Origin: a virus
IMG/VR virus record: IMGVR_UViG_3300042691_003221
Coordinates: 1 to 43,200 of that record
Direction: 5' to 3' (one strand)
DNA: 43,200 bases
The notes below the pieces were generated by a model, which saw only the letters and a list, made by a program, of their open reading frames with translations, had not been told where the DNA came from and searched no databases. Within the stretch, counting starts at the first letter, position 1; each line of letters opens with the position of its first letter. The position numbers were made by a program, and so were the translations under genes. This document shows positions 4,290 to 41,134 of the stretch, piece after piece.

Positions 4290-7200
4290 ATGGATGTTTT
4301 AATGCCAGACGGCACCACGATAACTGGTGTCCCAGAGGGTACGACTAAGTCTGACTTAATGGCCAGATATGGCAAATACACGGCAGCTCAAACGCCAGCT
4401 GTTGAGCCAGGCTTGCCAACAATTGCAAAGGGTGCCACACCTCCAGGCCCAAGCTCGGGCGTCTTTGGTGGTGATGATGTGGCAAGTCAGATCTTCCCAG
4501 TTGAACCGCCAACTCCCGCCCGTAGACCATCAGCTGTACCAGAGATGCGGGCATACGAACCGTCCTTTATGGACCGGATCAACGAGATCTTTCCTGGTGA
4601 TAAAGCCAAAGCAGCCAACGAATATGCGGCTCGCCAAATTGCAACTGAGCGCGGCGTTCCCATTTCCGAAGTGTACAAAGATGTTGGCGGTGCGCGCCCA
4701 ATCTTTAATCCAGAGGGTCGCGCGCCAGTCCAGGCCGGAACTGAAGCGGCTGGAATTGTTGCGTCAGAACTGCCAAAAGTTCCGCAAGCTCTAGCAGCTA
4801 CAGCCTTGCAAACTATCCGCGCTGGAGATATTGAATCTCCCGTAGATAAAGATTGGCTGGACAGGTCTATTGCCTTTATGAAGCCGACTAGGCCTGATGG
4901 CACGGCTGATAAGAACTACCAAGCATTCCAAGGCTTGGGCGAATCTTTGGGCTTTAGCTTGGGCACCATGGTGGCCAGTGGATTGGCGGCAGTTGGTACG
5001 ACCGCAGTTACCGGTGGCAATGTCCCTGCCGGTGTTGCAGCTGGTATGGGTGCATCTGGTGCAATTGCATACCGCGCTAGCAAAGATGACTTCATGAGCC
5101 GTGTTCGTGACATGCTCAACGACAAGTCCAAGAAGCTATATGGAACCAACATCAGTCAAGAAGACTGGAACAACGCTCGAGAAGAATACAACCAGGCTGC
5201 CGTGGAGTATGGCGCTTGGGAGGCTGTGCCCGAGGCAATCAGCAATGCCATCTTCCTAAAGGCATTTACCGGTCCAGCCAAAGCTATTACTTCTGCTCAG
5301 AAGTTGGCTAGCCTGACAGAAAAGGCTATGTCGCAGGTTGCAGAGCAAGCCACAGAAACTATCACTGCACTTGGCCAAAATTCTGCCGAGCGCAAAGCCG
5401 GACTGACTCAAGAAGAACTCAACATTGTTGACGCATTCCGCCAACAATTCGTCCAAACCCTACTGATTTCCGGCGGTATGGCTGGTGGCATGAAGGGCAA
5501 AGAACTTGCCACCGACTTCTATCAAAAGAATATTGAACCAACCATTGCACCACAGAGCGCCCTTGGTCGCGCAATCAAAGCCGACTTGGATGCAGTTGGG
5601 TTCTCGCCTGAGTCCAACCGCCAAGAGGCAGTGCGTCGCCTTAGTCCTGACCGCGCCCAAATGGAAATGGTGCCAGAGGCTGGTATTACGTCTTTACGCC
5701 CAACTGTTGCGCCAGCACCGCCAGAAGAGCCAACAGGTATTGTCCCAGAAGCGCCCCCGGAAATTGTTACGCCGGTAGTAGAAGAAGCCCCGCAAGAGCC
5801 TCCGCAAACTGCTTTACCGGTTGCCGAAGAAGCCCCGGTTGCCGAGCCGGAAGCACCAATAGCCGGACCTGCTGCTCCAGCTGCTGTTGAAACTCCAACC
5901 GAAGAGCTGGCCAGACAAGTCCTGCCAGATGAGTCTCAAGACTATGAGGCAATGATCATGGAGTTGGCGACTCAGCTTGGGGAGAAGCCTGCGCCCAAAG
6001 CAGAAGAACCCATAACTGCAGGCCCAACCGCTCCAGTAGGCGGCCCTGCTGCGCCTACAAAAATAGCCAAGCCAGAAACGCCCATTGAAGAGGCTCCCGC
6101 TCAATCACTTAAAGAATGGGAAGATAAACATATAGAGCTTTCAAACAACGTGGCAGCCAAAGAAAAAGAAAGCAATCCAGAAGATTGGACTCCCGAAGAA
6201 AATTCTGCTTACGATAGCGGTGACTGGAAACAGTTTTCTAAACTAAGGGGTTATACAGAAGATGAGATTGCCGAATATCAAACTTATTTGGACTCTGTAA
6301 AAGAAGGTCAAGAAAAGTACGGCCTATCTTTGGATGATATTCAATCACTCGAGATTCCTGCGCCAGAAGCCCCCAAAGAAGGAAAGCCCGCAGAACCTAC
6401 CGCCGGACCAGCCACTCCAGTGGGTGGTCCTGCCGCGCCTACAAAAGTAGCCGAGCCAGAAGCGCCAGCGGAGCCCGCTAACATTGATGAAGTTATAAAA
6501 TCATATCGTGATGACCCAGATGTTGCCGCTGGTTTACTTGCAAACGACTTGGTTGAACAAACACATTTAAATAATGAAATACGTCAAATTGCAAAAACTT
6601 ATTTAACAGATGGGGCTGACGTAGGAAGAGTAAAACTTCAAGAAGGTATGCAAGACCCAAATAGTGGGTTTGGTATTTTGGGTTTAACACAACCTGAAAT
6701 GGACGAATACTTTAAAGAGTTAGATCAATATCTAACTGAGAAATCTAATTTATTTAAAGCAGAGCCTACGGAAGGCGCTTTACCCAAAATACCCGCCGGA
6801 GAATACAAGCCAAGAGATCAGTTCCAACACGAAGGAAGAACTTGGCAAGTTAGTTCTGTACTTCATACGGGTAAAGGTTTGGAGGCCAATACTGTAGACA
6901 AAGGAAAATTTGTTCGTCAGCGCTTTGACATTGCCACAAAAGAAGTTCCAGCGGAAGAGAAGCCTACCGCCGGTCCAACAACCCCTGCTGGCGACACTAC
7001 CACTGTTACAGTCACTCCAGAAAAGCCAACAGGCGGACCTGCCGCTCCAGCTGGACCCAAAGAACCCAAGGCGCCCAAGGTAAAGCTCTCTGAAGAAGAG
7101 AAGGCAAAGGCAGTAGAGGAAAAGGCCAAGGCCGAAGAAGAGAAAGCCAAAGCCGAAGAGCAAAAGAAAAAGGCCGAGGAATTCAACAAGCAGCCCATGA

Positions 7201-10200
7201 AGGTTGCCATGGAAGCAGGCAATGCTGATGCTGTTGCGTCTATCCTTTATGGAAGAACAGTATCCGAAGACCTGATGCCCGTCATCTTTCCTGAAGAGAT
7301 GTTGTTACGCATCCCTGTAGATACAGGAAACCTAACAGAGATTGAGGCGGCGCTGGCCAAGAATGGTTTCCGTATTACAGATCGCTCAGTTGCCGCAACT
7401 ACAGATGACCCATCCTACACAGGCCCTGAGCGTGTAACTATTTCCGCGCTATACAAACCCGAGAAGGTAAGTATCCAAGGTGGTGGCGCTGAGTTTTATG
7501 GAAACCGTAAAGACAAGGTTACCGCTCCTCCAATACCTAGAGATGCTACAGACGCCCAAATCACCAAAATGTTGGCCGCTGTATCTAAAGACATTCTGCT
7601 TGACATCACTTCAAACCCGGACAACTCGTTTGGAACAATGATGTACAAAGAGGGCATCGTGAGCTATGTCTTGCCTGCATCCGATTACATGCTTGCCGCT
7701 CTTAAAGAAGCCCGCCTTGTTCGTGTATCTGAGAGAACAGGTAGCCGCCAAGCTATCAAGATGGCTTTGGAAAACGGTAAGGAAGATGAAGTCCAAAAAC
7801 TTTTACAGGGCTATGTCGATGCGCTTCAAGGCCTGCAAAAGGTCTTTGACTCTCACGCCCGTGTAGGTGACTTAGACCTTGCGCTAAAAGAAAAGTACGT
7901 CAAAGATGAAAGCCAAAGCTCGTCGGCGTTTAAGTACACGCAAGATGGACTTGATCTCCGCAGTAAGCTGAAGGCCAACAACCTGCCGGGGCTCTTTAAC
8001 AAGATGTATCAGTTGTTTGGTGCAAATGAAGACTCCACCGACCAGACTAACCGCGTCATTAAGAAAGAAACTGAAGTACCGCCAGAGTTGGGCAACATCA
8101 TCCGTCGTGGTATGCGGGATCACCGCCAAGGCCGTGACGTTGACGTCCAAGACTTTGTAAACACGTTTGGCCTGTTCCCCGGCGGCGTTGACTTTGGTAA
8201 CTGGGTTAACCAGTCAGAGCGCGCGGCTCACTTGAATGCTATCTATGACGCCATGTATGACTTGGCGGATGTTTCTGGCATCTCACCAAAGATGCTTGGA
8301 TTGGGCGAGAAGCTCAAGATGGCAATTGGCGCCCAGGGCAAAGGTGGCAGAACTGCTGCCCACTACATTCCCAAGTTAAACGAGATCAACCTGACCAAAA
8401 CCAAAGGTGATGGATCGCTTGGCCATGAGTGGCAGCATGGTTTGGACTGGAACCTTCAGCAAGATGCTAATGGCAAGAAGTTGATGGCAGGCACAATTGA
8501 AGCCCTTAGAAACACAATAGATGCCGAGACAGTAGAAAACAATCTCAAGGCCATTTTGCGTGACACTGCCAACAGCACAGACAACCGAAACATGCCTCCT
8601 AAGAAGGCGTTCTTTGCTGCAATTACAAACCCTAATTATTATTCCCAAGCACCAATCTTCAGGGACTCGTACAAAACAACTCAGTATCTTAGAGATGCTC
8701 GAGCGCTAGATGAAGCAGAAGGCAGAAGCCCTGTTTACTGGAGCTCCAACGTCGAGCTGTTGTCTCGCGCATTTGAGTCCATGTTGTTTGATGCTTCTAA
8801 AGGTGGATCACCATACCTTGTTGGCCCCACAGTTGCTGATGGATATATATCAAAGAAGAACGGGTACGGCGGTACGTCTTATCCGGCGGGCAAAGAGCGC
8901 CCAACCCTCAATGAAGTCTATAAGCAAATGCTTGACCAGATTGACCCAGAGACTTTAAAAGTCAAAACTTACAAGATGGACACCAAGATTGTCCAAGTGG
9001 AAGAGCTGGGCTACGCAGTCTTGGATCAGTACAACTTAGATTCTGGCTCTAGCGGCGGGTTGACTTGGTTTAAAAACCAGAAAGACGCCGAAGAAGCCAA
9101 GTCCCAACGCGACGGCCAAGAGAGAGTCATGACTCCAGAGGCCATGCAACTGAGCAAGGTCAATCAGCGCATTATTGACATGGCAAAGCGGGTTGACGCC
9201 ATCATGGAAGAAATGGGTCTATTCAAGTGGCCTGAGATTAAGAATGGCTCAATGTCTGAGTCCATGTTCTATCACATGCGCCAAGGCTGGTGGCCAAAGA
9301 ATAACCGCGAGTTGGCTGAGTACGGCATCAAAGCGTACTTACAGAATCCAGAGTTGCTTGGCTTTAACCCGGCCAAGGATCAGCGGGAGATAGAGAAGTA
9401 CAAGATTGCCGACTTTGAGGGTGATCGAATCAAGCTCAAGCAAACTCAAGAAGATTTTGAGGCGGCAGCTGTACGCTTTGTCAGCCAAGTTATTACTGAC
9501 ATGAGGGTTGCAGGTTCAGATACACAGGCCATCTACGAACACATCGTTGGCCTGTATCAGACCCAACCTACATTGGATGTTCAGTCTGTCCTGAGCAAGA
9601 CGAACAACGCCTACTCCACACCCCTGCCTATTGCTTTCCTGGCCGGTATGTTGGCAAAGGTCAAGTCCACCACTACGGTCTTGGATCCAACGGGCGGTAA
9701 TGGAATGCTGGTGGTGGCAGCCAATCCACAGAACGTCACAACAATTGAGTTAGACCCTCGCCGCGCTGAAAACATGCGGTTAATGCAAATTGGCAACGTA
9801 ATTGATGGTAATGCTCTTGAAAAGATCAATGACTTGAGAGATCAAGAAGTTGATGTAATTTTAGCTAACCCGCCGTTTGATGATTTACCAAGCCCGGAAA
9901 ATGTTTTATCTTGGACTGGACAAGCTTATAAAATAAGCAAATTAGAACAACTAATTGCAGCCAAATCTTTACGAGCCATGGCCAACAATGGCCGTGCTGT
10001 ATTGATACTTGGAGCGCACCTTAAGGCTGGAACAATAACCACGCCTGATCGGGCATTTTTAAATTGGTTATATGGCAATTACAACGTAGTAGACCACTAT
10101 GAAATTGGCGGCAACTTATATCGTAAGCAGGGCGCGTCTTGGCCGTTGCGCGTCCTAGTTATTGCCGGTAGAAACCAAACGGAAAACGCTTATCCGCGTG

Positions 10201-13200
10201 ACTTCAACGTCGACCGGATAACTACATTTGATGAACTTTGGAGTAGATATGTTCAAACCAGTGATCGTAGCCAAGAAGTCGTGGTGGGTACCGGAAAGAA
10301 ACAGCCAATTACTGGCGGTGCAAATCGACCTACCGGAGGAGTACCAGCAGGCGGTACGCTGGAAGATGGAGACTTTGGCGGAGGAGTGGGGGCTGGAGAG
10401 GGCGCTGGCGTCGGCGAACAACTACCTACAACAGGACGGGGCGCTGGCGCTGCCACAACCGGCGGACGAGGAGCAGCTGGTGCAGCTGGTGCTGGAGAAC
10501 AGCAGCCGGATATCGGAAAAAATAAACGAGGGGGATCCAATACTGGCCAATCCGGCAGCTCAGAAAGAGGCGCTGATAGCGGTAGAGGATCAGAAGCTGA
10601 ACTGGGAGGACTTTCTGACTTAGACCTAGACTCAATCTTTGATGAACTAGGTAAGCCAGAAAAAGTCAAGGGCGGCCCGCGCGCGCCTCGAGGTGCTCCT
10701 AAAGAGCCCGGCGCTCCAAGAGCTCCAAGAGCGCCAGCAGTCAAAGGCCCAACAGTTATTCCAAAAGAATTGGAAGGATTGGGACTAGAGTCATTGTTGG
10801 ATGAATTGGATGTTGCCCTGAACGGCAAGGCTCCTGAAGTAACCAAAGAAACTACGCCCGAAGACAGTCAAGAGCGCTTAGACAAGCAAGCCGCCGAGGC
10901 TATGGGTCGCATTGCTCAGAACACCAAGAACACTAGCGATGACCCCAACAGTGGACAGTACTCACGCAAGGGTGATCAGGATTACGCCAACGTACAACCA
11001 ATCATCCAAAAGGTGTGGAATGCTGTAGGCGAGAAGGTTAGTGATGCAGCACAGCGTATTAAGCAAGTCTATGCGTTGCTGGTTGGTAAGTTTGGGGATG
11101 CCATCAAGGCTCATCTGCGCACGTTTGTGGACAGCTTGCGCTCAGTGGTACAGCGTCGTCCTAAGAACCAGACCCCTGTCCAAGCTGAACCTATTGATAC
11201 TGAATCCCGCGTTGTCTACCTTGGCAAATCACGGTTCTCCAGCGACGGCATTTACTTACCGCGCGCGCAGTCTCAACATGCTTACTCTGCGCTGGAAAGA
11301 TTAGAAGCCCAAGTTGGAAGCATTGATGAGTTTGTGGCAAACGAGCTTGGATACGCATCAGTTGAGAAGATGGCCAAAGGATTGGCTGGGTACCAGATAG
11401 ACGGCTTGGCTCTGGCTATCCAGGCCAACAAACTTGGCAAGGGCTTCATCATTGGTGACGACACCGGTGTGGGTAAAGGCCGTGCCGCAGCTGCCATGAT
11501 TGTCTGGGCTAAGAAAAATGGAAAGATCCCAGTCTTTGTAACGCTCAGTGATTCCTTGTACACCGCGATGTATGAGGACTTGAGCAACATTGGCCATGAA
11601 GATATCAAGATCGGCATGACCAACAATGAGTCCATGATTCAGAAGAACATTGGTAATGGCCAGACTAAGATTGTGTTTGAGAACAAGGGCAAAGCTGGCC
11701 CAGACCTTATGTCCTACATCGCCAAGAACGGCGAGTTGCCCAAGGGTATGGATGTTTTGTTTACAGCCTACTCTCAGCTTAATGGCGGAACAGGATCTCC
11801 GGCAAGACAAGGCGCCATAGCTTCTTTGGTTGCTGCCGGTAAAGCCGTCTTGATCATGGATGAGGCTCATAACGCAGCTGGCATTCCAACCAACCCGGAC
11901 TCTGTTGGCCAGAATGCTTTCTTCATGTCTTTGCTGACGGGTCAGAACTTGCTTGGCAAGGATAAGGACGCGCCAGAAGATTGGCAACCGCCTCCTGCCG
12001 TGTACTTGTCTGCGACGTTTGCAAAGCGCCCAGACAACATGCCTTTGTACATCCATACCAACTTGCGGTATGCAGCCAATACTCCAGAGGAGTTGACGGC
12101 TCTGTTCGGTAAAGGCGTGAAGACCGACGTATTGCAGCAGGTTTCATCTGAGATGCTGGTTGAGTCTGGCTCTATGTTGCGCCGCGAGAGATCGTATGAA
12201 GGTGTGAAGATGGACTTCGTTACAGACGAGGCCAATGCTCCACGCGATATCAGGGAAGTCGACAAAGTCACAACCATCTTAAGAACACTGGTCAATGCTG
12301 ATCGTGCGCTTAAAGATTGGCTGAAGACACCCGGAATCCAAGAGCAGCTCATTACGACGTTTGGCCCACCCGGCTCAATGATGGGGAAGATTGGAGCTAC
12401 CGCATTCACTGAAGCCAAAGCCAACATGTTTACCTCTGTGGTTCATAACTACATTGGCACCCTGCTGTTGTCTACCAAGACTCAAACAGCCGTAGACATG
12501 GTTGTGGACAAGATGAACAACAATGAAAAGGTTGTTGTTGGCTTGCAGAACACAAACGGCAGCGCGCTAGATGACTTTGTTTCCAAGAACGGCATCAAGA
12601 TAGGCGATGAGATACCCAACTTTGGTTGGCAGACTCTTCTTCAGCGCGCCATTGACTCAACCAGAAAAGTTACGTTGAAGTCAGCCACTGGAAACAAGAA
12701 GGACAACATCAAGGTTGAAGTCCCGTACTCGATGATGCCTCCATCTGTCAGGGCTGGCTACGATAACTTGGCCAACATGCTCAAAGACTTCCAGTCTGAT
12801 TTGCCTGTGGCTCCTATTGATTACATGCGTACTCAACTTGAGAGTAAGTATGTCTGGATAGTCGACGGCAAGACTCAGGTTGGAGACACACCTCCGCCCG
12901 GAGTTAAGGCTAGACACTTGGTGGTCAAGGAAATTACCGGCAGAAGCACAGCCGTAGATTACCGTGGTGATGTGCCTAAATACATGGCGCTGAACAACCC
13001 AGAGCGGGTTGCCATGATCTCCTCATTCCAAAACGGTGAAGACTCACAGAATGGTCCAATCGACGTATTGATCATTAACTCAGCTGGCGCGACTGGCATT
13101 TCGTTACATGCGTCTACTGAGGCGTTTGACCAGCGTCCACGCCATATGGTGGTTCTCCAGCCTCATGGAGACATCAGCGTCTTCATCCAACTGTTGGGTC

Positions 13201-16200
13201 GTATCCACCGCACTGGTCAGGTCGAATGGCCGTCATTCACCATGCTGGCTACTGGCATCCCGGCTGAACGACGCATCTTGGCCATGCTGCGCAAGAAGTT
13301 GTCCAGCTTAAAGTCCAACACTTCGGGCGGCTCTAGCAGCACCAAGGTAAACGGCGTCGACTTCATCAATAGATATGGTGACGTTGCCACTGCTGAGTAC
13401 CTGAACGAACACGCTGATATCCGCGAGTTCTTGGGTCAGCCTTTGTTTGGTGATCCCGCAGAACAAGCTGGAACAGACTTGGCTCACAAAGCTTCTGGCA
13501 CTGCCGGACTCTTGTCTTCCGCAGATCAGCAGGAGTTCTTTGACTCTATTGAGGCCAGCTACTTGGCCGAGATCGAGCTGCGCAACTCTACCGGCACCAA
13601 TGCCTTAGAGCGCCGCGTGATTCCGCTTAACGGTGAAATGATCAAGGAAAACCTGATCGAGGAAGGATTGGACAGCTCCAACCCATTTCTGACTGATGTG
13701 GTGATGGCTCAGTTGAATGTGGACGTTATCGGCTCTATACCAACCAAGCAAAACATTGATGATGATATTGCCCAGGCCCTAAACGGTCGCACTGCCCAAC
13801 AGGTTGTAGAAGAGATTGACACCGAGCTCAACACAATCTTTGTTGAGGTGAGAAACCAAATCATCTTAAAGCAGCAGGCTTTGGCTGCATCGATTGCTGC
13901 ACCTGACGCTACCGAAAAAGACATTGAAGTATTGACCAAGCAAAAAGAAGCATTGGACTTGCAGTTTGCTACCCTTGGTGAGCGCAGAGAAAGAACCCTA
14001 AACGCTTTGAGAAACCAATACCCAATCGGTATAGGCTTTGAGTCGTTCATGCTCAACAGTGTTCCAGCGAGCGCGGTTGTTGTTGGTATTAAGGTGGACA
14101 AGGCCAGGATTGGAAAGTCCAAGACCGGTAACCCATATTCACCATCCAACTTCCAAGTCATCTTTAAGCGCAACATCCCAGAGGGACGGGTTGCTCCTAC
14201 GCTGGCCACTTTGGAAGGCCCGAGCATTGACCAAAGCTCTCCATGGCGTAACCCTCCATTGAATGATTGGTTTGCCCTCAAGTCTGTAACTGGTGGTCGT
14301 ACTACTCGCTACATTGCTCTTGGAAACATCCTGAGAGCGGCGCAGTTGTTTGACAAAGACGGTGGAGAGATTGCCAAGTTCACCCTGATGAATCAGACAG
14401 AGCCAGTCTCCGGCGTGATCATGCCTGCCAAATACCAGCCTGTGGCCATCAGTGCGCAGCCGGTAAGGTTGCGCAATCCCAATGCCGCAGTGCAATACAC
14501 ACTGTCTGCTTGGCAAAAGATCCTCCAGAACAAGTACGACAGTACCCAAATGGAAGATTACAAACAAATAATAGACCAGCTGCAACCGCTGCTATTGCCA
14601 AATCTTCCAGACTTCCAGACGTTTGTTGATCTGCAAAAGGCCAGCTATACAAACATTGTTATCCGTGGCACACAGGGCATCTGGACTCTATCGCTGGATA
14701 ACTACAGGCCTGACGGGTTTAGGCTGTCTGTTGCGGGCGATGCGCCCAAGAAGTTTGTTACATCCATCAAAGACGTCCCTATGGCCAAGAAGGGTGGGCG
14801 TTACGAGATGACTGGAAGGGAAAACATATCAGACCCGGCCAAAGTTGTTTCACTCATCAAGCTCTTGCACAAGACCTATCCGGCGACCGTGGAAGCTGAC
14901 TTTGGCCAACTTGCCCGCGAGGTAATGAAGGTTGAGTTTGACGATAGCGAATCTAAGAAGGGCATGTTCTCTCGCACAGTGGCAGAGGGCGGCCAAAGCG
15001 TGGAAGATGTTAAGTCTCAAATAGTGCCTCTCAAAGGCATTAGAGTTAACGTCATCCAGTCTACAGATGAGCTGCCGGATGAAGCTGCACCGTCTGATGT
15101 TGAGGGTGCCTGGTACTCGGGCAATACCGTCTACCTAGTGGCTGACAATCTTCCAAATGCCAAGCGTGTTCAGGAAGTTCTGGCGCATGAGGCTATTGGA
15201 CATGCCGCGTTGGAAGCAATGCTTGGCAAAGACTTGATGGCAGATCTGGTCAAGAACGTGCAGAACCTAGAAAAGTCTTCGCGCCTGATTAAGCAGATTG
15301 CAGTTCAGGTAGACAACACACAACCCGGCTTGTCGGATGAGCGTCGTGCTAAAGAGATCGTTGCCGTCATGGCAGAGCGTGGCTTGTATGGTGGCTTGGT
15401 GCAGCGCGTGATCCAAGCCGTGCGTAGATGGCTCAAGGCTGCTGGCTTTACCCTCAAGTTCTCCGACAGCGATGTCTTGGCTTTACTCAAGAACGCAGAG
15501 AAGTTTGCCAATACCCCAGACTCTGCACCTAAGTTATTTGGAACACCAGAGCCTTTCTACTCTAAGAACTATCAAGGTGGCCCAGCCCCAGTAGCTCAGT
15601 GGTCTTCACCAGACTCAACGACCATGACCAACATTGAGTATCAGTTGGCTGATAAGTTTGTTGACCTCAAGCACGTTATCCGTGAGATTGAGAAGGGCGC
15701 TGGAGAGATTGAGGAAAACTTTGACGCCTATACCAAAGAGACTTTGATGCATGGAAGGGCGTCAGAGGCCATCCAGGATTTCCTGAACAAAGAACTCTTA
15801 CCCGTTCTGAAGGAAATGCGCGCCAAGAAGGTTACGCTGCCCGAGCTGGAAGAGTATCTCCATAACCGTCATGCTGAAGAGTACAACATCCAAATTGCCA
15901 ATATCAACCCAGCTATGCCGGGGACTGATGAGACAAACTCTGGCTCTGGCATCTCTACCGATAACGCAAACATTTACTTAAACAGCCTGACCCAAGAACA
16001 GAAAGACAAGTTTGAGTCACTTGCTGCAAGCGTTGACGCTATCGTAAAAGGAACGCAAGAGGTTGTGGTACAGGGTGGTTTAGAGACTCAAGAAACAATC
16101 AACCTTTGGAACAAGACATACCAAAACTATGTCCCTCTAAAGCGCGCAGACTTGGACTATGTCCATACCGGAAGTGGAATAGCTCGCGGTCTTCAAACCA

Positions 16201-18317
16201 AGGGGCCGTTTAACAAGAGGGCCATGGGCTCACTGAAAGACGTTGTTGATATTTTCTCCAACATCGCCATTCAACGAGAGAAGGCAATCATCAATGCAGA
16301 AGCCGCCCGCGTTGGACGCGCTCTGTATGGCTTGGTCATTACCAATCCAAACCCCGGCTTCTGGATGGCGGTCAACCCTGACGCTATCAAGAACAAAAAG
16401 AAGCTTGAGGAAGAGCTGATTAACCTTGGGATAAACCCATCGGAAGCTCAGAACTTATTCCAAGAACCCAAGAGCCCAAGCATTGATCCCCAAACAGGGT
16501 ATGTCAAATATCAAGTCAACCCATTGATGCGCCAGAGCGACAACGTGTTCTCTATCCGCGTAAATGGCAAAGACCGCTTCGTCTTCTTTAACGGTAATGA
16601 TCCGCGCGCTTTGCGTATGGCCAAGACCATAAAGAACCTAGAGTCTGAGCAGCTGGGCGTGGTGCTGGGAATGGTTGGCACTGCAACTCGCTGGATGGCG
16701 GCGGTTAACACTCAATACAACCCAGTGTTTGGTGCTTGGAACTTCTTGCGTGACGTTGGTTCTGCCACGATTAACCTGTCAGCCACACCTCTTGCCGGCA
16801 AACAAGCACAAGTTCTTGCTGGGACTATGCCTGCCATGGCGGCCATATACAGGGGGCTGCGCGTTACTCGCGGGGGTAAGGCGGTCAACTCATATTGGGT
16901 AGATGTTTACGACAGATACAGACACGCTGGCGGTAAGACTGGCTTTAAGGAACAGTTCAGCAAAGGAGAAAACAAACTAACCATTGTTGAAAAAGAATTG
17001 GCCAAGCTTGATCGCGGCAATGCTAGACAGCTGGCTGCCGGAGTATTTAACTGGTTGTCGGACTACAACGACACCATGGAAAACGCCGTGCGTTTGGCGG
17101 CTTTTGATGTTGCAACCAAGTCAACTTCAGAAGGTGGTTTAGGGTTGAGCGAGCAAGAAGGCGCAGCCTTGGCCAAAGACCTCACTGTTAACTTCAACCG
17201 TAAGGGTGCAGCCACTAAATGGATGCAGACTTTGTATGCTTTCTTTAATGCCTCTGTACAGGGTGGATTGAAAGTTGGCCGGACTCTCAACGGTCCAGCT
17301 GGTCGCAAGATCATGATTGGCGGCGTGATCGTTGGTATGGTTCAAGCTCTGGCTATGGCCTTGGCCGGATTTGATGACGATGATCCTCCTGAATTTATCA
17401 AGGCAAAGAACTTTGTTATCCCAACAGGCGACGGCACTTATAAAGTGTTCCCCATGCCTTTGGGTTACAGCATATTCCCCGGATTTGGCCGCTTGGTAAC
17501 AGAATACATCTTGGCTCAGAACAACATTATCAGCAGCAAGAAGAAGGCTTCTGATGTGGTGCTCGACATCATGTCGATGTCTGTGGAGGCGTTTAACCCG
17601 CTTGGCTCTGGAAGTTTGTGGCAGATGGCTATGCCTACTCTTGCAGATCCATTTGCCGCACTTTCTGCAAACAAGGATTCGTTTGGACGTCCTATCTACA
17701 AAGAAGACCGCGCCAACAATCCAACTCCTGGTTACCAGCGTTCACGCGAAAGTGCAAGCGCTGTTGGTCAGTTCGTAGCTGAGTTCTTAAACTATGTGTC
17801 ATCTCCATCTGGAACTCTCCACACCAAAGGGGCTATAAGCCCAACGGCTGATGAGGTTGACTACCTTATTGGACAAGCAACGGGCGGCGCAGGGCGTGAA
17901 GTAATGAAAGCGGCACAGTATGCTGGCGCGGTAGTCTCTGGTGAAACAGCTGAAGTGCCAACATACAAAGTGCCAATAGTTGGTAAGTTCTTGGGCGAGA
18001 CTGGTTCTGCTTCGGCAGTGTCGGCTGGCTTCTATGAAAACGTAATCAATCTGGCAAAGCATGAGAATGAGATAAAGCAACGGATCAAGAGCAAAGAGCC
18101 TACTGCCGAATATAAAGCTGACCATCCAGAGTGGCGCTTTATGGGTCGGGCTAATTACCTAGAGAACCAAATAGCAGCTATCAACGCCCAGAAAAAAGCT
18201 CTTCGCGAGCGTGGTGGCCGGGAAGAGCAAATAAAGAAATTGGATGAAAAAAAGACGGCGATGATGAAGAAGTTCAACGACGACGTTAAAAAAGCTCAAC
18301 TTACAGCAGTCCAATAA
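4290..18317 (+). CDS. Giant polyvalent protein: zincin, MTase, SNF2-like helicase, LPD38
   Basis: This is a single uninterrupted 4675-residue frame, among the longer phage genes. Start ATG follows GGGGTAGGT. Order: short MPDGTTITGVPEGTT N-terminal motif; hydrophobic Gly/Ala segment near residues 225-260; Pro/Ala linkers (about 470-920); Glu/Lys/Ala coiled coil (about 930-965); LPD-type region with zincin motif HEWQH at 1379-1383; DNA methyltransferase with DPTGGNGML at 1799 and NPPF at 1860; Gly-rich linker (about 1995-2110); Strawberry-notch-type SF2 helicase with Walker A GDDTGVGKGR at 2389, DEAH at 2524, SAT at 2574 and QLLGRIHRTGQ at 2967; HEAIGH at 3633; LPD38-like C-terminus with NFNRKG at 4301 and a hydrophobic helix near 4340-4360. 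Such polyvalent proteins are thought to enter the cell with phage DNA and counter host defence. The methyltransferase looks like the N6-adenine type (NPPF). Activity of each domain is inferred. The virion location is inferred from the late operon. Confidence 0.9.
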   Translation: MDVLMPDGTTITGVPEGTTKSDLMARYGKYTAAQTPAVEPGLPTIAKGATPPGPSSGVFGGDDVASQIFPVEPPTPARRPSAVPEMRAYEPSFMDRINEIFPGDKAKAANEYAARQIATERGVPISEVYKDVGGARPIFNPEGRAPVQAGTEAAGIVASELPKVPQALAATALQTIRAGDIESPVDKDWLDRSIAFMKPTRPDGTADKNYQAFQGLGESLGFSLGTMVASGLAAVGTTAVTGGNVPAGVAAGMGASGAIAYRASKDDFMSRVRDMLNDKSKKLYGTNISQEDWNNAREEYNQAAVEYGAWEAVPEAISNAIFLKAFTGPAKAITSAQKLASLTEKAMSQVAEQATETITALGQNSAERKAGLTQEELNIVDAFRQQFVQTLLISGGMAGGMKGKELATDFYQKNIEPTIAPQSALGRAIKADLDAVGFSPESNRQEAVRRLSPDRAQMEMVPEAGITSLRPTVAPAPPEEPTGIVPEAPPEIVTPVVEEAPQEPPQTALPVAEEAPVAEPEAPIAGPAAPAAVETPTEELARQVLPDESQDYEAMIMELATQLGEKPAPKAEEPITAGPTAPVGGPAAPTKIAKPETPIEEAPAQSLKEWEDKHIELSNNVAAKEKESNPEDWTPEENSAYDSGDWKQFSKLRGYTEDEIAEYQTYLDSVKEGQEKYGLSLDDIQSLEIPAPEAPKEGKPAEPTAGPATPVGGPAAPTKVAEPEAPAEPANIDEVIKSYRDDPDVAAGLLANDLVEQTHLNNEIRQIAKTYLTDGADVGRVKLQEGMQDPNSGFGILGLTQPEMDEYFKELDQYLTEKSNLFKAEPTEGALPKIPAGEYKPRDQFQHEGRTWQVSSVLHTGKGLEANTVDKGKFVRQRFDIATKEVPAEEKPTAGPTTPAGDTTTVTVTPEKPTGGPAAPAGPKEPKAPKVKLSEEEKAKAVEEKAKAEEEKAKAEEQKKKAEEFNKQPMKVAMEAGNADAVASILYGRTVSEDLMPVIFPEEMLLRIPVDTGNLTEIEAALAKNGFRITDRSVAATTDDPSYTGPERVTISALYKPEKVSIQGGGAEFYGNRKDKVTAPPIPRDATDAQITKMLAAVSKDILLDITSNPDNSFGTMMYKEGIVSYVLPASDYMLAALKEARLVRVSERTGSRQAIKMALENGKEDEVQKLLQGYVDALQGLQKVFDSHARVGDLDLALKEKYVKDESQSSSAFKYTQDGLDLRSKLKANNLPGLFNKMYQLFGANEDSTDQTNRVIKKETEVPPELGNIIRRGMRDHRQGRDVDVQDFVNTFGLFPGGVDFGNWVNQSERAAHLNAIYDAMYDLADVSGISPKMLGLGEKLKMAIGAQGKGGRTAAHYIPKLNEINLTKTKGDGSLGHEWQHGLDWNLQQDANGKKLMAGTIEALRNTIDAETVENNLKAILRDTANSTDNRNMPPKKAFFAAITNPNYYSQAPIFRDSYKTTQYLRDARALDEAEGRSPVYWSSNVELLSRAFESMLFDASKGGSPYLVGPTVADGYISKKNGYGGTSYPAGKERPTLNEVYKQMLDQIDPETLKVKTYKMDTKIVQVEELGYAVLDQYNLDSGSSGGLTWFKNQKDAEEAKSQRDGQERVMTPEAMQLSKVNQRIIDMAKRVDAIMEEMGLFKWPEIKNGSMSESMFYHMRQGWWPKNNRELAEYGIKAYLQNPELLGFNPAKDQREIEKYKIADFEGDRIKLKQTQEDFEAAAVRFVSQVITDMRVAGSDTQAIYEHIVGLYQTQPTLDVQSVLSKTNNAYSTPLPIAFLAGMLAKVKSTTTVLDPTGGNGMLVVAANPQNVTTIELDPRRAENMRLMQIGNVIDGNALEKINDLRDQEVDVILANPPFDDLPSPENVLSWTGQAYKISKLEQLIAAKSLRAMANNGRAVLILGAHLKAGTITTPDRAFLNWLYGNYNVVDHYEIGGNLYRKQGASWPLRVLVIAGRNQTENAYPRDFNVDRITTFDELWSRYVQTSDRSQEVVVGTGKKQPITGGANRPTGGVPAGGTLEDGDFGGGVGAGEGAGVGEQLPTTGRGAGAATTGGRGAAGAAGAGEQQPDIGKNKRGGSNTGQSGSSERGADSGRGSEAELGGLSDLDLDSIFDELGKPEKVKGGPRAPRGAPKEPGAPRAPRAPAVKGPTVIPKELEGLGLESLLDELDVALNGKAPEVTKETTPEDSQERLDKQAAEAMGRIAQNTKNTSDDPNSGQYSRKGDQDYANVQPIIQKVWNAVGEKVSDAAQRIKQVYALLVGKFGDAIKAHLRTFVDSLRSVVQRRPKNQTPVQAEPIDTESRVVYLGKSRFSSDGIYLPRAQSQHAYSALERLEAQVGSIDEFVANELGYASVEKMAKGLAGYQIDGLALAIQANKLGKGFIIGDDTGVGKGRAAAAMIVWAKKNGKIPVFVTLSDSLYTAMYEDLSNIGHEDIKIGMTNNESMIQKNIGNGQTKIVFENKGKAGPDLMSYIAKNGELPKGMDVLFTAYSQLNGGTGSPARQGAIASLVAAGKAVLIMDEAHNAAGIPTNPDSVGQNAFFMSLLTGQNLLGKDKDAPEDWQPPPAVYLSATFAKRPDNMPLYIHTNLRYAANTPEELTALFGKGVKTDVLQQVSSEMLVESGSMLRRERSYEGVKMDFVTDEANAPRDIREVDKVTTILRTLVNADRALKDWLKTPGIQEQLITTFGPPGSMMGKIGATAFTEAKANMFTSVVHNYIGTLLLSTKTQTAVDMVVDKMNNNEKVVVGLQNTNGSALDDFVSKNGIKIGDEIPNFGWQTLLQRAIDSTRKVTLKSATGNKKDNIKVEVPYSMMPPSVRAGYDNLANMLKDFQSDLPVAPIDYMRTQLESKYVWIVDGKTQVGDTPPPGVKARHLVVKEITGRSTAVDYRGDVPKYMALNNPERVAMISSFQNGEDSQNGPIDVLIINSAGATGISLHASTEAFDQRPRHMVVLQPHGDISVFIQLLGRIHRTGQVEWPSFTMLATGIPAERRILAMLRKKLSSLKSNTSGGSSSTKVNGVDFINRYGDVATAEYLNEHADIREFLGQPLFGDPAEQAGTDLAHKASGTAGLLSSADQQEFFDSIEASYLAEIELRNSTGTNALERRVIPLNGEMIKENLIEEGLDSSNPFLTDVVMAQLNVDVIGSIPTKQNIDDDIAQALNGRTAQQVVEEIDTELNTIFVEVRNQIILKQQALAASIAAPDATEKDIEVLTKQKEALDLQFATLGERRERTLNALRNQYPIGIGFESFMLNSVPASAVVVGIKVDKARIGKSKTGNPYSPSNFQVIFKRNIPEGRVAPTLATLEGPSIDQSSPWRNPPLNDWFALKSVTGGRTTRYIALGNILRAAQLFDKDGGEIAKFTLMNQTEPVSGVIMPAKYQPVAISAQPVRLRNPNAAVQYTLSAWQKILQNKYDSTQMEDYKQIIDQLQPLLLPNLPDFQTFVDLQKASYTNIVIRGTQGIWTLSLDNYRPDGFRLSVAGDAPKKFVTSIKDVPMAKKGGRYEMTGRENISDPAKVVSLIKLLHKTYPATVEADFGQLAREVMKVEFDDSESKKGMFSRTVAEGGQSVEDVKSQIVPLKGIRVNVIQSTDELPDEAAPSDVEGAWYSGNTVYLVADNLPNAKRVQEVLAHEAIGHAALEAMLGKDLMADLVKNVQNLEKSSRLIKQIAVQVDNTQPGLSDERRAKEIVAVMAERGLYGGLVQRVIQAVRRWLKAAGFTLKFSDSDVLALLKNAEKFANTPDSAPKLFGTPEPFYSKNYQGGPAPVAQWSSPDSTTMTNIEYQLADKFVDLKHVIREIEKGAGEIEENFDAYTKETLMHGRASEAIQDFLNKELLPVLKEMRAKKVTLPELEEYLHNRHAEEYNIQIANINPAMPGTDETNSGSGISTDNANIYLNSLTQEQKDKFESLAASVDAIVKGTQEVVVQGGLETQETINLWNKTYQNYVPLKRADLDYVHTGSGIARGLQTKGPFNKRAMGSLKDVVDIFSNIAIQREKAIINAEAARVGRALYGLVITNPNPGFWMAVNPDAIKNKKKLEEELINLGINPSEAQNLFQEPKSPSIDPQTGYVKYQVNPLMRQSDNVFSIRVNGKDRFVFFNGNDPRALRMAKTIKNLESEQLGVVLGMVGTATRWMAAVNTQYNPVFGAWNFLRDVGSATINLSATPLAGKQAQVLAGTMPAMAAIYRGLRVTRGGKAVNSYWVDVYDRYRHAGGKTGFKEQFSKGENKLTIVEKELAKLDRGNARQLAAGVFNWLSDYNDTMENAVRLAAFDVATKSTSEGGLGLSEQEGAALAKDLTVNFNRKGAATKWMQTLYAFFNASVQGGLKVGRTLNGPAGRKIMIGGVIVGMVQALAMALAGFDDDDPPEFIKAKNFVIPTGDGTYKVFPMPLGYSIFPGFGRLVTEYILAQNNIISSKKKASDVVLDIMSMSVEAFNPLGSGSLWQMAMPTLADPFAALSANKDSFGRPIYKEDRANNPTPGYQRSRESASAVGQFVAEFLNYVSSPSGTLHTKGAISPTADEVDYLIGQATGGAGREVMKAAQYAGAVVSGETAEVPTYKVPIVGKFLGETGSASAVSAGFYENVINLAKHENEIKQRIKSKEPTAEYKADHPEWRFMGRANYLENQIAAINAQKKALRERGGREEQIKKLDEKKTAMMKKFNDDVKKAQLTAVQ
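6015..7060 (+). repeat. Repeated Pro/Ala linker cassettes in the polyvalent gene
   Basis: A 21-residue linker of the form TAGPxxPVGGPAAPTKxAxPE is encoded at 6015-6077 (residues 576-596) and again at 6399-6461 (residues 704-724). A degenerate third copy spans about 6966-7060 (TAGPTTPAG ... TGGPAAPAGP), and a weaker AGPAAPA occurs near 5860. Between the copies lie two short globular-looking segments rich in Glu and Asp. The linkers separate small modules like beads on a string. Confidence 0.7.
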
Positions 18318-22709: not shown

Positions 22710-23024
22710 ATGGCCACATCAACAACTCAACTTAGCCTCAAGCTAATGAGGGATAGGGGTTATTACGCGGAAGTTGTTGAAAGATATAACTATTTCACCA
22801 AGCGCAAGAATGATTTTGCCGGATTTCTAGACCTACTTTGTTTGCAGCCGGGCGACGTCACCGGTGTCCAAACCACCAGTTTGTCCAACATATCGAGCCG
22901 GATCAACAAGATTATGGAGCATGAGAACTTGGATGTTGTGCTTGCATCTGGTATCAAGGTTGAAGTTCATGGGTGGGTGAAAAGAGACAACCGGTGGCAA
23001 GTTAAGATCGTTGAGATAGAATAA
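22710..23024 (+). CDS. Putative PD-(D/E)XK-like nuclease
   Basis: This encodes 104 residues from ATG 22710, with AAGGG upstream. The pattern LKLMRDRGYYAEVVERYN, DFAGFLDLLCLQPGDVTGVQTTS, then ARINKIMEHENLDVVLASG-like text and KVEVHGWVKRDNRWQVKIVEI is a conserved phage family. The D in FLDLL and the strand GVQTTS sit where a PD-(D/E)XK core would have its D and (E/Q)xK, with the Lys replaced, so catalysis is uncertain. It stands alone, divergent from the recombination operon, and is followed by its own terminator at 23068. A Holliday-junction or VRR-type nuclease role is a guess. Confidence 0.72.
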   Translation: MATSTTQLSLKLMRDRGYYAEVVERYNYFTKRKNDFAGFLDLLCLQPGDVTGVQTTSLSNISSRINKIMEHENLDVVLASGIKVEVHGWVKRDNRWQVKIVEIE

Positions 23025-23067: not shown

Positions 23068-23100
23068 AATCCCTGGTTGGAGACAGCTGGGGATTTTTTT
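23068..23100 (+). terminator. Rho-independent terminator after 23024
   Basis: AATCCC and GGGATT form a stem around a 15-base loop-bulge segment, followed by seven T residues ending at 23100. It lies 44 bases after the stop of the nuclease-like gene. Confidence 0.7.
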
Positions 23101-23116: not shown

Positions 23117-23144
23117 TTGTCTCATTTTCTAAAATATGTATAAT
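23117..23144 (+). promoter_or_regulatory. Strong predicted sigma-70 promoter for the RNA region
   Basis: TTGTCT (23117-23122) and a perfect TATAAT (23139-23144) are separated by 16 bases in AT-rich DNA. Start of transcription is expected near 23150-23152. No coding region follows for about 540 bases, so the transcript is untranslated over that length. Confidence 0.65.
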
Positions 23145-23150
23145 CCGATC

Positions 23151-23277
23151 TGTTGGCGAGTGGAATCACCAATGAATGCGAAAGCCGTTAAATCAAACTC
23201 CGACCCCTTTTGGGGTTCCGGTCTGTCCCATAAAGATAGGTCGCGATTCCACCGGGGTTTGACTTAACGGCTTTTTT
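23151..23277 (+). ncRNA. Candidate small RNA or attenuator with long terminator hairpin
   Basis: A long imperfect stem joins 23182-23201 to 23254-23273 (AAGCCGTTAA/TTAACGGCTT, then TCAAAC/GTTTGA and a CC/GG step), followed by six T residues. Inside it is ACCCC-TTTT-GGGGT (23203-23216). The 5' segment GTGGAATC (23160-23167) is exactly complementary to GATTCCAC (23245-23252) inside the loop. Both stems together would form a pseudoknot; otherwise they are alternative structures. With the promoter at 23117-23144 this is a complete transcription unit of about 125 bases. It could equally be a terminator in the leader of the early operon. Confidence 0.6.
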
Positions 23278-23280
23278 ATT

Positions 23281-23660
23281 TGCGCTTCCACACCCCAGCC
23301 GGACTCCATCCGTAGCAAGGGGTTGTATCGCCCGCGTGGAAGAAAAGACAGAACCTCGGTGTGACCCGCACCCCCAAGTAGAGCAATCGAAAGGGATATA
23401 CAAGGCTGTCAGTAATGACACATACCCCACTGACTGAGAGTTGATCGACCACAACGTGCAAACGCGGTGAATCGGGATTTCAGGGGAGGGCGGAGATGGC
23501 TACCCGATAGTCGACAGTAACTGCGAAAGCAGCCAACCCGACATAGTGCCTTGGTAAAGAGCCTAGATCGTCCCCCTGCTGGGAGGGAGGGTCTACGGGT
23601 TAGGTATGCTTGGCTTGTGGACATAGGAGATGACCCGCTTGTGTTCCATGAGATGTGTGT
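23281..23660 (+). ncRNA. ORF-free structured RNA region, candidate large ncRNA or leader
   Basis: No convincing coding frame exists on either strand. Perfect or near-perfect stems follow one another: CTTCCAC/GTGGAAG (about 23285-23342) enclosing ACCCC/GGGGT and CGGA/TCCG; GGTGTG/CGCACC (23358-23372); TGTCA-GTAA-TGACA (23407-23420); ATCGGG/CCCGAT (23471-23508); CTGC-GAAA-GCAG (23521-23532); TAGA/TCTA (23564-23595); CGGGTTA/TGACCCG (23596-23637). Two stems close with GNRA tetraloops (GTAA, GAAA) on the + strand, arguing that this strand is the RNA. The region ends at the operator and ribosome site of the early operon. Phages do carry large ornate RNAs (GOLLD, ROOL); I cannot match this one to a named class. 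Confidence 0.55.
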
Positions 23661-23664
23661 GATA

Positions 23665-23687
23665 TAACTGTAACAGTGTTATAGAGG
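23665..23687. promoter_or_regulatory. Dyad operator copy before the rightward early operon
   Basis: TAACTGTAAC-AGT-GTTATAGAGG matches the dyad family with one base missing from the centre. It overlaps a possible -10 (TATAAC at 23663-23668, with TTGTGT 18 bases upstream) and ends at the AGAGGAGG ribosome site of the gene at 23696. A protein bound here would block transcription or start of the early operon. Confidence 0.6.
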
Positions 23688-23695
23688 AGGCTGAA

Positions 23696-23815
23696 ATGTG
23701 GGATGTACTTGTGACTGTGATTCTGATGGGCTTTGGCGCATTTATGGTTATTGCTATTGGCGCGATCTTCATAGCGGCAATATTCTTTATGCAGAACGGA
23801 GGGCGTGATGACTGA
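23696..23815 (+). CDS. Tiny single-pass membrane protein
   Basis: This encodes 39 residues: MWDVLVTVILMGFGAFMVIA, then IGAIFIAAIFFMQNGGRDD. One long hydrophobic helix with an acidic tail predicts an inner-membrane peptide. The ribosome site AGAGGAGG is nearly perfect and 5 bases from ATG. The next gene starts inside its last codons. First gene of the rightward early operon; function unknown. Confidence 0.72.
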   Translation: MWDVLVTVILMGFGAFMVIAIGAIFIAAIFFMQNGGRDD

Positions 23816-40522: not shown

Positions 40523-40719
40523 TTGACAAGTACTTAGAACACTTGACCTCCAAGGTCAATGACAAAATTTTGCAACTCCAAGAGGCTATGGGTGACGGTA
40601 ACGCCGCCGACTTTGCGGAGTACAAAAAGATGTGCGGAGAGATTAAAGGTCTTCTCACCGCGCGTTCCTACATCAAAGACCTACAGGAAAGATTAACCAA
40701 CAATGACGACGACAACTGA
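40519..40719 (+). CDS. Small helical protein beside portal
   Basis: This encodes 66 residues: MIDKYLEHLTSKVNDKILQL, EAMGDGNAADFAEYKKMCGE, then LTARSYIKDLQERLTNND. It starts with the same MIDK as the portal and overlaps its stop. Conserved small helical proteins of this style follow portal genes in many phages; the role is not known, perhaps in head assembly. Confidence 0.75.
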   Translation: MIDKYLEHLTSKVNDKILQLQEAMGDGNAADFAEYKKMCGEIKGLLTARSYIKDLQERLTNNDDDN

Positions 40720-41134
40720 AATTTTGTTTGCGACCAACCCCAACAATCCCGTTGTAATTGGCAGCTCACAAAAAACAGAAGAAGAAAAAGCATCTCAACT
40801 TCCAAAGCCATCTGGCTACAAAATCTTGTGCGCAATTCCTGAACAGGAAAAAGAGTACGAGGGAGAAATTGGGATTATCAAAGCAGACGAAACCATGCGA
40901 TACGACGAGCTGCTGACTACAGTCTTGTTTGTTGTTGCCCTGGGGCCAGACTGCTATATGGACAAGGCAAAGTTTCCAACCGGGCCTTGGTGTCAAAAGG
41001 GTGATTTTGTGTTGACTAGACCCAACGCAGGCTCACGTTTACAAATTCACGGCAGAGAATTCCGCATCATCAACGACGATTCAGTTGAAGCTGTTGTAGA
41101 AGATCCCCGTGGTATCAAACGCAAAACTTATTAA
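40703..41134 (+). CDS. GroES-like co-chaperonin
   Basis: This encodes 143 residues. After a short polar lead, LPKPSGYKILCAIPEQEKEYEGEIGIIKADET, then VLFVVALGPDCYMDKAKFPTGPW and QKGDFVLTRPNAGSRLQIHG look like the Cpn10/GroES beta-barrel: a PxGYKIL strand, a mobile-loop region (around EIGIIKADETMRYDELLTT) and a VVALGPD...GD strand pair. Phages carry such proteins (T4 gp31 type) to fold capsid proteins with host GroEL. The location between portal and scaffold fits that role. Overlaps the previous gene by 17 bases. Confidence 0.75.
   Translation: MTTTTEILFATNPNNPVVIGSSQKTEEEKASQLPKPSGYKILCAIPEQEKEYEGEIGIIKADETMRYDELLTTVLFVVALGPDCYMDKAKFPTGPWCQKGDFVLTRPNAGSRLQIHGREFRIINDDSVEAVVEDPRGIKRKTY

Follow-up and report, generated by a model that had tools for sequence, protein, structure and literature searches.

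A structured RNA gene of two separable modules, each with a pseudoknot, in a tailed-phage genome and its relatives

The RNA gene and its surroundings

The window analysed here is a 43,200-base IMG/VR virus record with tailed-phage genes, encoding a large terminase, a portal, a ParB-like protein, a helicase and a primase. It also contains one open frame of 4,675 codons (4290-18317) and, adjoining the portal gene, a gene for a GroES-like co-chaperonin (PHROG 3188; 40703-41134). A structured noncoding RNA gene of about 465 nt occupies 23150-23616 on the + strand and has its own sigma70-type promoter. On the 5′ side it is preceded by a small gene ending at 23024 and then by a terminator-like hairpin, whereas on the 3′ side a run of small genes starts at 23696 (Table 1). 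The first-pass annotation had delimited an ORF-free structured region at 23151-23660; the conserved RNA, however, stops at about 23616. Comparison of the window with L096 (L-numbers denote loci or records of relatives) gave a conserved block with 81% identity over about 430 nt, between flanks without a match. The gene is composed of two modules, a 5′ module (23153-23277) and a 3′ module (about 23285-23616).

Table 1. Features of the RNA gene and its immediate flanks in the window.
Feature	Position	Strand	Basis or remark
Terminator-like hairpin ATCCC..GGGAT + T7	23069-23100	+	Sequence; separates the upstream gene from the RNA gene
Sigma70-type promoter: -35 TTGTCT (23117-23122), 16-nt spacer, -10 TATAAT (23139-23144)	23117-23144	+	Sequence, relatives
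P1 hairpin TTGG/CCAA, loop carrying strand A GTGGAATC (23160-23167)	23153-23172	+	Relatives
P2 long stem, arms 23181-23202 (5′) and 23253-23274 (3′)	23181-23274	+	Covariation; G-U pairs fitting a + strand RNA only
P3 and P4, both enclosed by P2	23203-23216 and 23218-23243	+	Covariation
Strand A′ GATTCCAC, partner of A in the P1 loop (pseudoknot)	23245-23252	+	46/46 relatives; 0/2000 permutations
T-run directly 3′ of P2, terminator-like	23272-23277	+	Sequence; at least 5 T in 44/45 elements
CTTCCAC, possible alternative partner of A (A″)	23285-23291	+	Weak; observed value reached in 62/2000 permutations
Module M hairpin CGG(ACTCCAT)CCG, loop CTCCA pairing with TGGAAG (within 23336-23342), enclosing a GGG/CCC hairpin	23300-23342	+	Covariation
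P5 hairpin GGTGTG(ACC)CGCACC	23358-23372	+	100% paired, one pair with a compensatory change
GNRA hairpin GA(GCAA)TC	23381-23388	+	Compensatory change at both pairs
Long-range stem P6 CAAGGC (23401-23406)/GCCTTG (23548-23553), enclosing hairpin TGTCAGTAATGACA and further helices	23401-23553	+	Type F alignment
Terminal helices, end of the conserved RNA, G-rich GGGAGGGAGGG	23563-23616	+	Conservation stops at about 23616
First downstream small ORF, ribosome-binding site AGGAGG	23696-23815	+	Outside the RNA

The strong -10 hexamer noticed in the first reading is indeed present, with a -35-like hexamer upstream. In most relatives the -35 is TTGACA; at least 10 of the 12 hexamer positions are matched in 40 of 46 relatives, and 2-13 nt separate the end of the -10 from P1. 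A palindrome seen between the two hexamers was near the shuffled level and was dropped.

Folding of the + strand of 23140-23700 was better than in 100 of 100 dinucleotide shuffles (z -3.65), with a weaker signal on the - strand (z -2.15). No long frame occurs on the + strand, where the longest stop-to-stop runs (27-84 codons per frame) shift frame between relatives, and no single frame is maintained by the mechanical ORFs of the - strand either, bearing out the earlier impression that a convincing coding frame is lacking. In MW202545.1 (5652-6109, equivalent to L004 4947-5404), the hypothetical proteins UOF78434 and UOF78433 are annotated over the RNA; these are probably not genes. An Rfam search of the window returned no family at the gathering threshold and, up to E 10, only chance-level eukaryotic or sRNA names. 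Compensatory changes in relatives, a check named beforehand, are abundant in both modules and, together with the lack of an Rfam match, support the initial proposal of a novel large RNA or regulatory leader. The segment 23150-23616 is almost certainly a genuine structured RNA and not a protein-coding region.

The 5′ module and its pseudoknot

Strand A lies in the loop of P1, and its partner A′ just before the 3′ arm of P2. An alignment of 5′ modules (A1) had 95.5% of cells paired and 11 pairs with double changes, matched by 0 of 500 shuffles; slid versions fell to 34-54%. A and A′ are complementary in all 46 distinct relatives, forming a helix with a mean of 7.63 bp versus 5.65 bp with permuted partners (46 distinct sequences; 0 of 2,000 permutations reach it). 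Because the relatives' sequences are related, these shuffles and permutations overstate significance. This pseudoknot was not among the structures listed in the earlier sequence-only reading. In divergent sister elements A is nearly free to vary and A′ follows, as in GTCGTTC/GAACGAC, GTAGTGGT/ACCACTAC and GTTGCGGA/TCCGCAAC; the mean is 7.27 bp versus 5.23 bp permuted (maximum 5.61 in 1,000) over 89 of 126 sites, namely those found by a strict stem-plus-T-run rule, a few of which are poor parses. The case for the predicted A/A′ contact rests on the number of different complementary pairs, and because the two strands vary freely but together, the 5′ pseudoknot is testable by simple compensatory mutation. 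The heptamer CTTCCAC, considered as an alternative partner of A, was set aside as weak (Table 1).

The same covariation bears on a self-assembling multimer, in which A and A′ would pair between molecules to build a ring or cage comparable to those involving phi29 pRNA loops or GOLLD/ROOL kissing loops. Freely varying strands that stay complementary are expected of a specificity code, and the cages of GOLLD and ROOL do use kissing loops (PMC12286853); nevertheless, A′ sits in a junction rather than in a hairpin loop, and P2, at about 20 bp, is long enough for P1 plus A/A′ (about 14 bp) to lie beside it, making an intramolecular contact possible, so that we regard multimerisation through A/A′ as very improbable.

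P2 has many pairs that are G-U when read on the + strand, assigning the RNA to that strand. A DNA element (origin, operator or recombination site) in place of an RNA is barely credible: inverted repeats are palindromes in DNA too, but the 57 + strand G-U cells of P2 would read as A-C mismatches in the opposite strand, and the promoter directly before P1, the GNRA loops and the strand-specific pseudoknots also argue against it.

A run of at least five T ends 44 of the 45 model-detected 5′ modules. P2 followed by T6 has the sequence form of an intrinsic terminator, with a 50-nt multibranch interior instead of a small loop. The window carries the type I features throughout, namely the P1-A/P2-A′ pseudoknot, P2 with its T-run and a promoter in front, and its 5′ module scored 91 bits (E 2e-24) with the type I model R1, the window itself being in the training set.

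The 3′ modules and the wider family

The 3′ module of the window is of type F, as are those of L032, L059, L078, L089, L096 and L236. RNAalifold, applied to an alignment of six type F sequences, yielded 108 pairs, 33 of them with compensatory changes versus 12.6 in shuffles. Pairing reached 92.6% of cells versus 85.0% shuffled and 33-49% slid, the slid control being generous because that alignment was also the source of the structure, and the covariation score was reached by 0 of 500 shuffles. Double changes are spread over many helices, including CAAGGC/GCCTTG, the hairpin TGTCA/TGACA and the GNRA hairpin; L236, added later, displays more variants of the same stems by eye. The GNRA loops reported at first reading were confirmed, with GCAA at 23383-23386 in the window and GUAA, GCAA and GAAA in relatives, accompanied by compensatory closing pairs. 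A terminator following the 3′ module is no general feature (5 of 46 relatives, about 1 expected), and the window has no obvious one. G-runs such as GGGAGGGAGGG..GGG (window 23579-23600) recur at the 3′ ends of different 3′ types, including type B, and could form a G-quadruplex.

A second pseudoknot, module M, is found in types B, C and F, where the loop of a hairpin CGN(ACTCCRY)NCG pairs with a downstream RYGGAAG. Sites were taken by a strict regular expression that fixes part of the stem, and only the free positions were therefore tested. The covarying position was G-C in 44 of 73 distinct copies, A-T in 27 and T-A in 1, being paired in 72 of 73 (shuffle mean 53.7, maximum 61), and the next position outward (y-z) has no pairing excess. 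Of the nested pairs proposed in the first-pass annotation, CGG/CCG stands, with 73 of 73 copies paired at the variable position, whereas CTTCCAC/GTGGAAG and ACCCC/GGGGT are not kept in relatives; the outer one is probably wrong, since GTGGAAG pairs with the hairpin loop CTCCA in the covarying pseudoknot.

A 16-base pattern from P2 retrieved about 15 true relatives among chance matches, the P2 3′ arm pattern 61 viral contigs, and the P2 5′ arm pattern, without the T-run, 56 viral contigs, all but one seen before. Neither exact arm pattern occurred in 84,980 bacterial and archaeal genomes, in scans limited to exact type I patterns, by which diverged bacterial copies could be missed. Every searched genome record with a match holds one site, second rows being the mirror strand of the same site. 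BLAST in phages identified one record only, MW202545, an uncultured phage from Manatee Spring; BLAST in plasmids gave no match, nor did a type B/type II query, and no isolate with a named host carrying the RNA was found.

Beyond the T-run, the relatives' sequences fall into at least six 3′ types without resemblance to each other, and the same 5′ architecture thus precedes at least six unrelated 3′ folds. Scans with 3′ motifs recovered at least 120 contigs for type B and 36 for type A, most of them with an upstream 5′ element of the same plan and different sequence. Of 58 loci, almost all selected through their 3′ motif, most gave a 5′ element with a covariance model built from type I modules only, other sequence types included.

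The carriers' terminases are diverse: compared with that of the window, identity is 76% in L032 and 73% in L096, two others have 34-35% over part of the protein, and six others, some of them fragments, have no match. Genes for tRNA lie directly upstream on the same strand in L004, L025, L032, L036, L052, L066, L114 and L188, and Rfam reports another upstream tRNA in L080; most records, and the window, have none. Inserts were also observed within the RNAs. On the reverse strand of L107 (3327-3442), a type B RNA contains an insert resembling a tRNA, which scored 33.7 bits with the Rfam tRNA model and was not called by ARAGORN. The long stem GATTGATGATGG/CCATCATCAATC closes it, and the type B RNAs of L099, L163 and L198 have other inserts at that place. 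Just 3′ of the T-run in L065, L073, L080, L189 and L201, RNAs of different type, an extra stem-closed module stands between the 5′ and 3′ modules, e.g. GGAACTAG..CTAGTTCC with GTTGGGTTAGCGCC.

The two modules are usually joined but separable: the T-run is missing behind the 5′ module of L102 and L185, no 5′ module accompanies the type A 3′ module of L218 and L234, and L214 has a protein gene between the two. The L214 protein (122 aa) resembles type I restriction HSDR_N weakly, at a score below the cut-off. An alternative is a pair of neighbouring RNAs, the first a terminated sRNA of 125 nt whose U-tail would be like that of Hfq-bound sRNAs, the second a 3′ RNA derived from other transcripts. 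Such a pair would agree with the terminator-like end of the 5′ module and with the solitary 3′ modules of L218 and L234; however, no promoter was seen in the short gap from the T-run to the 3′ module, and the 5′ module precedes most type A and B 3′ modules, leaving this arrangement quite improbable.

Possible function and relation to known RNAs

Judged from sequence, the explanation towards which we lean, with modest confidence, is a standalone ornate phage RNA of about 465 nt whose 5′ module would act as a compact cap and partial terminator. Host RNA polymerase would start at the sigma70-type promoter, and the first 125 nt would fold into the cap, with P1 alongside P2 and the P1 loop pairing with A′ at that stem's far end. 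P2 and the T-run would probably stop part of the transcripts, giving a short RNA, while read-through would give the full RNA, with a 3′ module folded into an ornate structure bearing GNRA loops and a pseudoknot. The 3′ module may be the effector in the infected cell, acting in trans as GOLLD and ROOL may. Compensatory changes in both modules, the promoter directly before P1 in nearly all relatives, the conserved block between unmatched flanks, the upstream tRNAs in at least eight records, the single site per record and the absence of bacterial or archaeal pattern matches and of an Rfam match point to a standalone RNA. On the other side, P2 with the T-run resembles a full intrinsic terminator, which would block the making of the 3′ module, terminators at the 3′ end are not general, and the terminator-like 5′ module occurs apart from the 3′ module, the two being separable in L214, L218 and L234.

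The main rival, though on balance unlikely, is an attenuator or antitermination leader, in which the 5′ module would open the early operon as a conditional terminator, and A/A′ pairing, or an RNA-polymerase contact like that of HK022 put, would set read-through into the 3′ module and early genes. The promoter, P1, P2 and T-run are clustered at the 5′ end, 44 of 45 elements of otherwise differing sequence have the T-run, small early genes follow the RNA in the window, the L214 5′ module lies directly before a protein gene, and several relatives precede ParB-like genes. Nevertheless, the 3′ module is itself large and conserved in its fold, exceeding what a leader would require, the downstream genes appear, by eye only, to have their own promoters in several relatives, and L102 and L185 retain the 5′ module without the T-run. 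A standalone RNA is favoured over a leader, although sequence does not fully separate the two.

For the group as a whole, we tentatively propose a modular phage RNA system, in which a 5′ module common to the group, pseudoknotted and terminator-like and with an A/A′ pair private to each phage, might have recombined with six or more unrelated ornate 3′ RNAs and with tRNA-like inserts. The outcome would be interchangeable effector RNAs, perhaps shaped by an arms race. The group is large, mostly undescribed and widespread in phages, combining a constant 5′ module with many different ornate 3′ modules.

One fragment of it is already in Rfam. The 120-nt model RF02932 (Betaproteobacteria-1) matches the first part of type A 3′ modules at 93-107 bits, and the matching modules follow the same 5′ module in L004, L014 and L029 and related 5′ elements elsewhere; no match was obtained for the window. 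Starting only past the T-run, the model covers neither the 5′ module nor the remaining 3′ types, and this orphan motif can now be placed as part of a bigger two-module RNA. Among other phage RNAs, phi29 pRNA is small and has complementary loops that vary together; the present RNA differs in architecture and has no Rfam match, and this phage has an ordinary large terminase. To our knowledge, the put RNA of HK022 is without an ornate 3′ module. Like the present RNA it is a structured phage RNA, and it acts on early-gene transcription, working by binding RNA polymerase (PMC9378689).

GOLLD and ROOL are phage RNAs often located near tRNA islands that form cages with kissing loops and have no known function, and GOLLD linkers are reported to hold tRNAs (PMC12286853). 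The present RNA resembles them in kind, being phage-encoded, large and ornate, with some copies near tRNA genes and with covarying kissing or pseudoknot contacts, and GOLLD likewise has one conserved and one less conserved half. It is not a member of either family, which the first reading had cited for their similar size without matching the region to them: no match to their Rfam covariance models was obtained up to E 10, it is shorter, its 5′ half is constant while its 3′ half swaps between unrelated folds, and a terminator-like stem with a T-run lies inside it. To the elaborate structures of GOLLD and ROOL, the present group adds a clear internal logic.
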